Below are positions 6,454 to 51,365 of a stretch of DNA of 64,000 nt, one piece after another; positions within the stretch are counted from its first letter, which is position 1; each line of letters opens with the position of its first letter. This DNA comes from Spartobacteria bacterium (GTDB taxonomy: Bacteria; Verrucomicrobiota; Verrucomicrobiia; Chthoniobacterales; UBA10450): assembly GCA_003167555.1 (NCBI GenBank), contig PMSN01000021.1, forward strand, positions 1-64,000, read 5' to 3'. Under the pieces are notes generated by a model. That model searched no databases, was not told the DNA's origin, and saw only the letters and a list, made by a program, of their open reading frames with translations. The position numbers were made by a program, and so were the translations under genes.

Positions 6454-7440
6454 TCAAAGCTCCTTCCAAGTGAGTAATTGCACAGAATTGCCTGCTTTGC
6501 GGACCACCATTCGCACAACTCGCGTAACGTCGCCGGATTTTCCCAAGCTCACCACGCGAAACGTTTGATCTCTACCGGGATTGAGCAAGGGGACAAGTTG
6601 TTCAAACTGTTGTTCCGTGAAGCCCAGCGCAACCCGCGCATCACCGGTCCCCTTGATTGGGTCGTCCTCAGTGCCATCTATGCCATCAGGTCCGCGGCGC
6701 AAAGCAAGAAATTGATCGACCCGGCCCGCGTCCATTCCGGGCAACGCAAGGAGAACATCACGCGAAGCCCAGGCGATATCAATGGGTCCGATGCTCTTCA
6801 GGGTAAAATCCGCATCCCAATCTTTCTGCGAAGTGAATTCGCTCCAGCCGCGGACCCTTTTCAATTCGTCGATGCTGATGAGCGGTTTATTGGCGGGCTT
6901 GTAACCCGGCTCATCTTCAGCTCCGTTGAGCCGGACGAGATTGTCCGGATCGACCCAGTCGAGCAGGCAATCGATCATGTGGTCGCGTTCGTTCAAGTCG
7001 ACGCCTTTGTTTTCGAGATACTTTCGCAACACTTCGAGACGCTGCGGATTTTCTCCCGCCACGATCCAATTAATATTCAGCCGCCCGCCTTCGCCGGTGA
7101 TGCGCGTTTCGTATGTTTGGTTTCGGGCCAGTCCTCCGTGTAACAAAGGCGAGCCGGGCAGCACGGCGGGATGCATCGCGATCTCCGCGCCTGAGCAGGC
7201 CATTGCTTCCGCTTCAAGCGCGCGATTGGCCTGACCGGAAATGACGAGACGCGAATCAATGTCGATAGCCCACGAGATCAACATCGCACTGAGCAAAAAC
7301 AAAGCCCAGAGCGACAGCATAAGCGCCGCGCCGGATTCTCTTCTGTAGCGGCGGTCTCTGACCGCCGAACCGAATCCAGAATGGGCGCTTTTCCGGCGGT
7401 CAGAGACCGCCGCTACAGGAGATTTCTCAAGGGCGTTCAT
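6454..7440 (-). CDS. gspK: Type II secretion minor pseudopilin GspK with an in-frame palindrome near its N terminus
   Basis: A 328-residue GspK-family pseudopilin, thought to sit at the tip of the pseudopilus and start its assembly. The hydrophobic prepilin helix (ALMLSLWALFLLSAMLISWA) is followed by the large alpha domain (NINWIVAGENPQRLEVLRKY, DCLLDWVDPDN, SIDELKRVRGW). As usual for GspK there is no Glu at +5. The ATG at 7440 overlaps the gspJ stop (ATGA), which fixes the start. Codons 9-33, between the start and the prepilin cleavage site (RRESG/AALM), are made of a 75-bp palindromic repeat, giving a leader far longer than the usual 6-8 residues. Confidence 0.85.
   Translation of the reverse strand: MNALEKSPVAAVSDRRKSAHSGFGSAVRDRRYRRESGAALMLSLWALFLLSAMLISWAIDIDSRLVISGQANRALEAEAMACSGAEIAMHPAVLPGSPLLHGGLARNQTYETRITGEGGRLNINWIVAGENPQRLEVLRKYLENKGVDLNERDHMIDCLLDWVDPDNLVRLNGAEDEPGYKPANKPLISIDELKRVRGWSEFTSQKDWDADFTLKSIGPIDIAWASRDVLLALPGMDAGRVDQFLALRRGPDGIDGTEDDPIKGTGDARVALGFTEQQFEQLVPLLNPGRDQTFRVVSLGKSGDVTRVVRMVVRKAGNSVQLLTWKEL
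7343..7417. repeat. 75-bp palindromic repeat inside gspK
   Basis: Two perfect 25-bp inverted arms (CTGTAGCGGCGGTCTCTGAC, continuing CGCCG, and its complement) are separated by 25 bp. Each arm is itself nearly palindromic (CGGCGGTC-TCT-GACCGCCG), so it can fold as a double hairpin. It is translated in frame as part of the gspK leader, and its length is exactly 25 codons. The same arms recur at 15842-15913. Confidence 0.9.
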
Positions 7441-8075
7441 TGCTGTGGGATTGGAGTCCGCCCAAGAGCGATCACGGTTTCCCAATTTTTTGAGCCATCC
7501 GTTCGTTCAATGATCACCTTCACCAGACGCGGCAACGTGGAAGTGTCCGTCCAGCGCTCGATCCACGCGTTCAGTCGCACATCGAAGTAAGTGATGCGCA
7601 AGCCCTGCACCTTATCGAGAAGTGGAATCCAGGTCTCGCCTTCGCTCGATCCCTCGGCCGTTTCCCGCGGCCTGCGCAGAAAACCCAGCTCCATCTGGTC
7701 GCTGCCTTCGTTCACGCGTTTCAGCCGCATGTTCACCGTGAACTCGCCCCCCGCGTAACGCGTCAACAGGCCCGGCCCCGATCCGCATACCCAAACGATC
7801 TCATCACGCGGCCGGTCGTTGAATTTGAACGGCTCGCCGCTGAGCATCCCCTGCCCGGTCGGCAGATTCTGCCATTGCGCGCTGAGCAGATTCATCAATC
7901 CGGCGTAGCGCGCTTCGGTCATATTCTGCTCGGAGGAAACCCGCATCACGGTCAGGTTCGTCGCCACGAAACGATAAATCGCGAGCGTCATCATCGCGAG
8001 GATCGCCACCGAGAGCGTGATCTCGAGGAGGGTGAAGCCCCGCCGTCTGGCGCGCTTATCCATTTCGATAAACAT
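7437..8075 (-). CDS. gspJ: Type II secretion minor pseudopilin GspJ
   Basis: A 212-residue prepilin-like protein. The basic leader MDKRARRRG is followed by FTLLEITLSVAILAMMTLAI with Glu at +5. The body matches minor pseudopilin GspJ/PulJ: a beta domain with the late segment LLDKVQGLRITYFDVRLNAW and a C terminus LPRLVKVIIERTDG. GspJ joins GspI and GspK at the pseudopilus tip. A start at 8063 (MDKRARRRG) is as likely as 8075. It overlaps both gspI upstream and gspK downstream. Confidence 0.85.
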   Translation of the reverse strand: MFIEMDKRARRRGFTLLEITLSVAILAMMTLAIYRFVATNLTVMRVSSEQNMTEARYAGLMNLLSAQWQNLPTGQGMLSGEPFKFNDRPRDEIVWVCGSGPGLLTRYAGGEFTVNMRLKRVNEGSDQMELGFLRRPRETAEGSSEGETWIPLLDKVQGLRITYFDVRLNAWIERWTDTSTLPRLVKVIIERTDGSKNWETVIALGRTPIPQQ

Positions 8076-15115: not shown

Positions 15116-15847
15116 ATGCCGCAAATGCAAACCAACATTGCCAAGGCGGTACTCCTCGCGGCGGGTCGTGGGACGCGGATGCGCGAGCTGACAGCAGCGC
15201 TGCCCAAACCGATGCTGCAAGTGCGAGGCAAGCCGGTCCTCCAGCACATCATCGAAGGATTGCGCGACGCGGGCCTGCGCGATTTCCTGATCGTGGTCGG
15301 CTGGCGCGCAGAGGTTGTGCGCGAGTTCTTCGGCAATGGTTCGCAGTTCGGTGTGCGCATCCAGTACACGACCCAAATCGTGCAGGACGGAACGGGAAAG
15401 GTCGTCGAGTTGGCGCAAGAGTTCGCCGGTCGCGATCCATTTATCCTGAGCTACGGCGATATTCTCGTCGCGCCACAAAACTACCCGCGTCTCTGCGTCG
15501 CACTGGCGGATGCGGAAGCGGTCGTGAGCGTGAAACGAAATGAGGACGTGAGCAAAGGCGGCGCGGTTTTCGTGAACGAGAAGTTCGAGCTGACCGATCT
15601 GCGCGAAAAACCAAAACCGGGCGAGCCGACGAGCCCCTGGTATAACGCCGGCATCTATGCTTTCCGGCCGGGCATTTTCGAATACGTCGCGAAATTGAAA
15701 CCGTCGCCGCGCGGCGAATACGAATTAACCGACGCGATCCGCGATCTCGTGTTCGCTGGGCAGAAAGTGCAAGCGCTCGAGCTGACGGGCGATTGGGCCG
15801 ATGTACGCGATCCGGAAATTCTCGCGCAACTGAACGCCGATCTGTAG
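15116..15847 (+). CDS. NDP-sugar pyrophosphorylase (nucleotidyltransferase family)
   Basis: A 243-residue sugar-phosphate nucleotidyltransferase. The signature IAKAVLLAAGRGTRMRELTA, then PKPMLQVRGKPVLQ binds the nucleotide and the product. The metal-binding Asp is in LSYGDILV, and the later EKP of LREKPKPGEP plus WYNAGIYAF are also family hallmarks. It makes an NDP-sugar from NTP and sugar-1-phosphate. The exact sugar (glucose, mannose or other) cannot be read. An alternative ATG stands at 15125. Its stop codon is the TAG of a palindromic repeat. Confidence 0.85.
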   Translation: MPQMQTNIAKAVLLAAGRGTRMRELTAALPKPMLQVRGKPVLQHIIEGLRDAGLRDFLIVVGWRAEVVREFFGNGSQFGVRIQYTTQIVQDGTGKVVELAQEFAGRDPFILSYGDILVAPQNYPRLCVALADAEAVVSVKRNEDVSKGGAVFVNEKFELTDLREKPKPGEPTSPWYNAGIYAFRPGIFEYVAKLKPSPRGEYELTDAIRDLVFAGQKVQALELTGDWADVRDPEILAQLNADL

Positions 15848-15913
15848 CGGCGGTCTCTGACCGCCGAAACGATTTACGAGAAGCGTTCCGGCGGTCAGAG
15901 ACCGCCGCTACAG
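15842..15913. repeat. 72-bp palindromic repeat, same family as in gspK
   Basis: The same perfect 25-bp arms as at 7343-7417 (CTGTAGCGGCGGTCTCTGAC, continuing CGCCG), here with a 22-bp spacer. The left end overlaps the last codon and TAG stop of the upstream gene. It lies between two convergent genes, where its hairpins could stop transcription from both sides. Confidence 0.9.
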
Positions 15914-23518: not shown

Positions 23519-23608
23519 AGTTGGAGTTATTCCTTCAAGGACAATTCGGCGCAGGTCCCTCTGGCAGATGTATTTCGAGCAAAGATTTTCTCATCTTCTT
23601 TCTAAGGA

Positions 23609-23699
23609 AGGTGGATCGTGCGCTCCGCCGCGCGATGTTTGGAGTCGCGGCTTTGCCGCCATTTAACGGCATCGAGCGACGGAACGCTCGATCCACCTT
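23609..23699. repeat. 91-bp palindromic repeat with GGTGGATCG arms
   Basis: The left arm AGGTGGATCGTGCGCTCCGC (on to 23636) and the right arm ending GCTCGATCCACCTT are inverted with a few mismatches around a 34-bp centre. A second copy with the same arms stands at 51275-51365. It lies between the lipoprotein and release-factor-like genes. Confidence 0.85.
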
Positions 23700-23716
23700 C
23701 GCATCCACGTCGCCCA

Positions 23717-45369: not shown

Positions 45370-45716
45370 AGATTTTAGGCGAAAGCAAGGCCTGCTGACA
45401 AGGAACAGGTAGGGACCGTAGTGGTATTGTTTTAGAACTGTACCATTGCGGTAGGTCCGCCGCGTTGAGTGCCGGAGGCACGACGGAAATAAAGCCCGGA
45501 GCGCAGCGTAGCTCCGGGTAGCAGCCCCATCCCAAAAATTCCAAACCCCGTGAGGGGTGACGGAAATGTTCGCGAAGAGGTGGGGCACTTCCCTGAATTT
45601 CCCGCCGTTCCGCCGCCCTTCCAGGGCTCCTGTCCTTTCGCATTTATCTACCCGGAGTTCCGCTGACGCTTCACTCCGGGCTTTAGTTGCGCCGCACCTG
45701 CGGTGCTTTCAATGAA
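45370..45716. repeat. Mosaic of short palindromic repeat modules
   Basis: About 350 bp of non-coding DNA between cstA and the methyltransferase, made of several short units. These are AAGCCCGGAGCGCAG-TAGCTCCGGGTA (45489-45521), ACCCCGTGAGGGGTGACGG (45546-45564), TTGAGTGCCGGAGGCACGAC (45465-45484) and a second CCCGGAGT...ACTCCGGGCTTT (45652-45684). Two minus-strand frames cross it, but their composition is that of the repeats. The region looks like an accumulation of inserted hairpins. Confidence 0.75.
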
Positions 45717-49144: not shown

Positions 49145-49183
49145 GGAGAGAGAATGATGCGGGGGAGGTGCGGGAATGCAAAT

Positions 49184-49241
49184 GGCAGGGCGAGACTCCG
49201 TCGCGCCGGAAGCGGTCGGCTCGACAGAGTCTCGCCCTACC
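49184..49241. repeat. 58-bp palindromic repeat between divergent valS and amidase genes
   Basis: Left arm GGCAGGGCGAGACTCCGTCG and right arm CGACAGAGTCTCGCCCTACC, inverted with two mismatches. It lies in the shared promoter region of valS and the amidase gene. Confidence 0.8.
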
Positions 49242-49299
49242 AAGAAATCGTCCCCGCTTGATCAGAGCAGCGATTGCGATTACGAGCAGGAGCACCAGC

Positions 49300-51253: not shown

Positions 51254-51274
51254 CTGCTCATCTCAAGGCGACCT

Positions 51275-51365
51275 AGGTGGATCGGGCGCTCCGCCGCGCG
51301 ATTCCATTAATCCCAGCTGCGCCGCCACTTCTTAACATCGTGCGACGGAGCGCACGATCCACCTA
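51275..51365. repeat. 91-bp palindromic repeat with GGTGGATCG arms, second copy
   Basis: Arms AGGTGGATCGGGCGCTCCGC (to 51302) and its complement, ending GCACGATCCACCTA, around a 34-bp centre. It has the same arms and length as 23609-23699. Read on the minus strand, its first TAG is the stop codon of the mmcQ gene. Confidence 0.87.

Follow-up and report, generated by a model that had tools for sequence, protein, structure and literature searches.

The gspK gene of a Spartobacteria bacterium (UBA10450, Chthoniobacterales) carries, in frame and within its prepilin leader, a palindrome of the REPIN type, in which two GTAG-tagged REPs stand in inverted orientation; such elements are non-autonomous mobile DNA of a known kind. 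We consider it highly probable that this element is an ancestral insertion kept as a tolerated passenger, its arms being homogenised within each genome while its spacer drifts. The DNA analysed (the window) comprises positions 1 to 64,000 of contig PMSN01000021.1 of assembly GCA_003167555.1. The genome it belongs to is 4.2 Mb (G000 hereafter), and its elements were listed from stretches of that genome; the comparison panel consisted of 58 genomes, mostly draft assemblies. The features of the window on which the argument turns are the following:

6454..7440, minus strand: gspK (type II secretion pseudopilin), intact as judged from frame, Pfam match and divergence pattern
7437..8075, minus strand: gspJ, whose stop overlaps the gspK start (ATGA)
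7330..7440, minus strand: prepilin leader of 37 codons, MNALEKSPVAAVSDRRKSAHSGFGSAVRDRRYRRESG, then hydrophobic AALMLSLWALFLLSAM; cleavage site predicted from the pseudopilin pattern
7343..7418, no strand: REPIN in frame in gspK, with a 26-bp spacer between perfect arms of 25 bp (inverted-repeat search, genome-wide family, element list)
7345..7367, plus strand: REP arm 1, GTAG and a CGGCGGTC-TCT-GACCGCCG hairpin, with the TCT loop that is the majority type in G000
7394..7416, minus strand: REP arm 2, identical in sequence to arm 1 on the other strand
7368..7393, no strand: spacer of the gspK REPIN, differing from the one that occupies the orthologous site in the related genome G003
15844..15911, no strand: the other REPIN within the window, located at the 3' end of a nucleotidyltransferase gene; the orthologous G003 site is a REPIN too

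An in-frame palindrome ahead of the cleavage site of GspK had been proposed in a first-pass annotation, and the inverted repeat and open frame bear this out. The repeat extends as arms of 29 nt (7339-7367 and 7394-7422, 97% complementary) around a 26-nt spacer, both arms being perfect over 25 bp as had been claimed, and the window contains its core motif four times, where shuffles predict 0.02. Its length is 76 bp (7343-7418) and not the 75 bp originally given. That it should amount to exactly 25 codons is meaningless: the 33 inverted pairs in G000 range from 55 to 84 bp, measured from GTAG to CTAC, and are spread without bias over the three length classes modulo 3 (10, 14 and 9). Divisibility by three is required of the net length of the insertion, and not of the palindrome. 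The frame of gspK contains no stop from the ATG at 7440 up to the end of the gene, palindrome included. The gspJ stop (TCA at 7437-7439 on the plus strand) lies within the ATGA overlap, which fixes the gspK start as previously argued, and in the G000 leader no in-frame ATG, GTG or TTG was found between this ATG and the Gly codon at -1. Since no start codon lies downstream of the palindrome and ahead of the cleavage site, a cleavable GspK can be made only by translating the insert. The leader is indeed lengthened, to 37 residues by our count instead of the 38 or so first estimated.

The palindrome belongs to a family that is abundant in this genome and well represented among its relatives. About 92 REP arms were found in G000 allowing up to two mismatches, against none with a reversed control; G003 holds 187, and the family was present in 35 of the 58 genomes searched. 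In each arm the GTAG directly precedes a short hairpin (GTAG + CGGCGGTC-N3-GACCGCCG). The 60 elements in the stretches of G000 that were read are single arms or inverted pairs with GTAG outermost, and no pair in the opposite order (GTAG innermost) occurs among the groups listed. CT or TT stands directly 5' of GTAG at 90 of 95 arm ends (CT at 74 and TT at 16), namely at 46 of 49 on the left and 44 of 46 on the right, which fits cleavage by a REP-associated transposase (the CT dinucleotide of TnpA-REP, PMC8266576). A REPtron is present in G003 (L163, G003:C3:209500-213500, about 1764-2398), where a Y1 transposase, a frame of 163 aa, is bracketed on both sides by GTAG-CGGCGGTC arms. The REPINs of this family are probably spread by a RAYT transposase. 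A search of G000 for a cognate RAYT returned none: the five Y1 domains of this genome are no more than 27% identical to the G003 enzyme over most of its length. The gene may have been lost, or lie in the 2% that the assembly lacks; present mobility here is thereby left unproven. Recent transposition into gspK from another copy in G000 was considered and rejected, no other spacer there clearly matching that of gspK. A plasmid search gave no match. The features agree with the REPINs of Bertels and Rainey (2011, PMC3116915), which are REP-doublet hairpins with a less conserved spacer and an association with RAYTs; what differs here is that several copies are intragenic and that orthologous copies of two species can be compared arm by arm. 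The other copy in the window, previously placed at 15842-15913, is real and has the same arms. It is not purely intergenic, because the nucleotidyltransferase gene ends on a TAG (15845-15847) contributed by the GTAG of this element. The window also holds two copies of another inverted repeat (GGTGGATCGnGCGCTCCGCCGCGCGAT, at 23607-23700 and 51274-51365), probably a second palindromic family, and two more inverted repeats (49183-49242, GGCAGGGCGAGACTCCGTCG; 45472-45703, GCCCGGAGCGCAGCG) that perhaps represent further repeat families.

The gspK copy is not the only one to be read in frame. At least six other genes of G000 contain elements of the family within an open frame and with a Pfam domain:

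L021: Obg
L005: alpha-amylase family protein
L074: DEAD-box helicase
L096: PMT_2 glycosyltransferase
L072: GDSL lipase, single arm
L082: RarA/MgsA, one standard arm

Ten more long frames that run through elements and have no Pfam match were left out of this count. An arm ahead of the first domain, and perhaps upstream of the true start, is found in phosphoglucomutase (L075), GlgC (L015) and a DNA methylase (L011). The left arm translates as VAAVSDRR or nearly so, because only one of its three frames is open, the other two running into TAG or TGA; the same arm peptide recurs in unrelated proteins. Sections of Di Nocera et al. (2013, PMC3733652) describe intragenic GTAG-REP dimers coding for 20-30 residues in Opitutus terrae and other species, and the gspK REPIN adds one example to this known class. 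The likeness extends to the GTAG tag, the short stem, the inverted pairs, the occurrence in Verrucomicrobiota and the stop codons that, in the account given there, GTAG provides to neighbouring genes. It is a likeness by description, and the prepilin-leader site and the matching of arms and spacers, site for site, in two species are what sets the present case apart from the parts of that work concerned with such repeats. Rickettsia palindromic elements (RPE; Ogata et al., as summarised in passages of PMC3733652) are likewise palindromes translated in frame inside proteins; they differ in being CGTC-tagged or longer families from another phylum, and those passages report no association of CGTC repeats with transposase genes.

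To place the insertion in time we compared gspK across the genus. A ten-gene tree with 100% support at every node sets G000 beside (G003,(G002,G004)), the other half of the genus being G001, G005, G006 and G007. The short-leader form of gspK whose existence the earlier reading left to be checked is present in four of these: GspK leaders count 11 residues in G002 and in G004, 13 in G005, 14 in G007, 26 in G001, 35 in G006, 37 in G000 and 41 in G003. In G003 the leader contains a REPIN at the same point as in G000. Relatives with a leader of equal length and unrelated sequence are not the rule; G006 is the awkward case, with 35 residues that hold no more than a weak hint of a REP (p 0.04). In G001 a decayed arm occupies the same frame (ungapped match at 21 of 28 nt, p 0.001 from dinucleotide shuffles). 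By projecting G000 flanks onto G003 elements, site orthology resting on flank alignment and the G003 elements being sampled in part, we found 13 REPIN sites common to both genomes, nine of them in addition to gspK, obg, rarA and the copy at 15842. For about 60 and 74 elements in an assumed 0.4 Mb of permissive sequence, we estimate that chance would bring less than one pair of sites to within 12 bp of each other. Furthermore, the rarA elements of both genomes have an identical private right-arm variant, found once in about 300 kb of each, which favours one ancestral insertion.

The shared sites make it possible to separate the age of a site from the age of its arms. At the seven cleanest two-arm sites, only 2 of 280 stem positions differ between G000 and G003, with 150-bp flanks that are 50-86% identical and spacers that are no more similar than shuffles, except at the site e32 (p 0.003). 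The spacers of gspK, 26 nt in G000 and 23 nt in G003, belong to the dissimilar ones (p 0.28). Loops are species-specific: among 70 exact-stem arms of G000, 50 have TCT and 11 TAT, and among 103 of G003, 94 have TAT and none TCT. TAT or TGT loops are commoner in relatives among the matches listed, suggesting that in G000 TCT is the derived state. Four of 26 classified G000 pairs are mixed (C/A) and one is A/A, and the mixed pairs look as though single arms can change. Concerted change of the arms at fixed sites would explain both the conserved stems and the species-specific loops, with gene conversion or RAYT-mediated rewriting as the candidate routes of homogenisation. In E. coli REPs and BIMEs, too, arms are conserved and linkers variable, and homogenisation by gene conversion was suggested for them in 1988 (Higgins et al., as related in passages of PMC8266576 and PMC3733652). 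The evidence here differs in coming from orthologous sites with species-specific arms, and this two-species comparison speaks for REP arms evolving in concert, an issue that has stood open from that proposal onwards.

Loop bases particular to each species and unrelated spacers are equally expected if the REPINs of G000 and G003 reached gspK and the 12 other points separately, drawn by hot spots for the transposase. Moreover, G002 and G004 group with G003 in the tree and yet have no insert in gspK, so that an ancestral origin requires several losses. We nevertheless judge separate arrival unlikely, as the 13 shared sites lie in diverse contexts in which no common target was noticed beyond CT/TT, and as hot spots leave unaccounted for the private rarA variant in both species, the residual spacer homology at e32 and the decayed same-frame arm of G001. 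Taken together, the shared sites and the G001 arm make one old insertion, common to G003, decayed in G001 and later lost elsewhere, the better reading of these sequences.

Conservation of the stem might also have been a sign of regulatory co-option, the hairpin in the mRNA lowering GspK relative to GspJ or marking the mRNA for RNase III. The palindrome starts to form its stem 18 nt into gspK, its predicted fold as RNA is very stable (-64.8 kcal/mol, z -9.3), and two species have retained the stem at this position. Stems are, however, equally conserved at intergenic and at other intragenic sites, so no reason specific to gspK is needed, and several congeners manage without a stem. An effect of the hairpin on gspK translation is possible but unproven, and selection for it is, in our estimation, a little less credible still than separate insertions. 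There is considerably less to be said for a function of the extra residues in pseudopilin targeting or assembly. The added peptide is arginine-rich, as the n-regions of prepilins are basic, and the leaders of G001, G006 and G030 are long too; but these are unrelated in sequence and length, relatives suffice with 11-14 residues, and the arm peptide is the same in unrelated proteins, all of which makes such a role very improbable. The long leaders may have another origin. A motif of the G030 leader (L041) occurs four times in that genome with up to two mismatches, and the GAAATTCGAAAT motif of the G011 (L063) and G029 (L055) leaders occurs seven and two times in their own genomes; this is suggestive, at most, of other repeat insertions, in which case repeats may generally tend to land in the gspK leader. 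Finally, the idea of gspK as a pseudogene in decay, with the insert as mere debris, can be set aside, for only the presence of a mobile element speaks for decay, whereas the frame is open to the end, the product matches Pfam T2SSK_1st (E 2.7e-14), mismatches with G003 are concentrated in third codon positions (0.30/0.16/0.51), as in a gene that evolves as a protein, and the neighbouring gspG, H, I, J, L and M (named from order and sequence) are intact and conserved in relatives.

We therefore return to the translated passenger as the explanation of the gspK REPIN. The element would have entered the leader before the present species of the genus split. It could have been tolerated, first, because it landed in the one open frame of the left arm and, second, because the insert would lie in an N-terminal leader that the prepilin peptidase removes, leaving mature GspK unchanged. 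The predicted cleavage motif SG|AALML is present in G000 GspK and a prepilin peptidase (Peptidase_A24) is encoded in the genome. (A palindrome within the peptidase gene itself, where the Pfam match is split, was examined as a candidate and discarded, as no inverted repeat was found there.) The predicted location in the leader, the encoded peptidase and the third-position bias of gspK divergence together make a near-neutral passenger likely. After the insertion, homogenisation within each genome would have brought the arms into line with its other copies, towards TCT here and TAT in G003, the spacer being free to drift; where the REPIN population collapsed, the arms would have decayed (G001) or the insert been lost (G002, G004, G005 and G007).

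REP-type Y1 transposase domains, too, are found in frame inside genes. One of the five Y1_Tnp domains of G000 lies in frame within recG (L035, G000:C1:2727-5693). At this site a Y1 insert is present, between the same two motifs, in about 20 of the 58 genomes, drawn from three or more families of the order (loci L159, L160, L162, L158 and L248-L264), and most other genomes of the panel have recG split at that point without an insert. The insert is flanked by repeat-coded linkers, and the HUH motif is kept in nearly all copies; recG of G004 retains only a short remnant resembling such a linker. Further insertions, all with frames free of stops, were found in genes whose names were read from their sequences, RecG being confirmed by Pfam:

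carB: in-frame Y1 domain in G006, G007 and G028 (L151, L155, L156)
metH: in-frame Y1 domain in G003, G007 and G028 (L152, L154, L161)
valS: in-frame Y1 domain in G006 (L153)
sua5: in-frame Y1 domain in G003 (L157)

Judged from its sequence, the recG insert looks like an intein-like passenger that is not spliced. The open-licence PMC literature searched yielded no report of in-frame RAYT domains or RecG-RAYT fusions.

On balance, we favour a broader picture for this bacterial family, with less assurance than for gspK itself. REPs would be long-lived passengers translated in frame, their intragenic sites inherited across species and both arms rewritten genome-wide in concert while spacers drift; Y1 domains would persist in frame at fixed sites of RecG, CarB, MetH, ValS and Sua5 in an intein-like manner, apparently without splicing. 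The gspK case offers a clear reason for harmlessness, namely a leader that would be discarded. If confirmed in the proteins, the in-frame transposases of housekeeping enzymes would constitute a widespread kind of translated mobile element.
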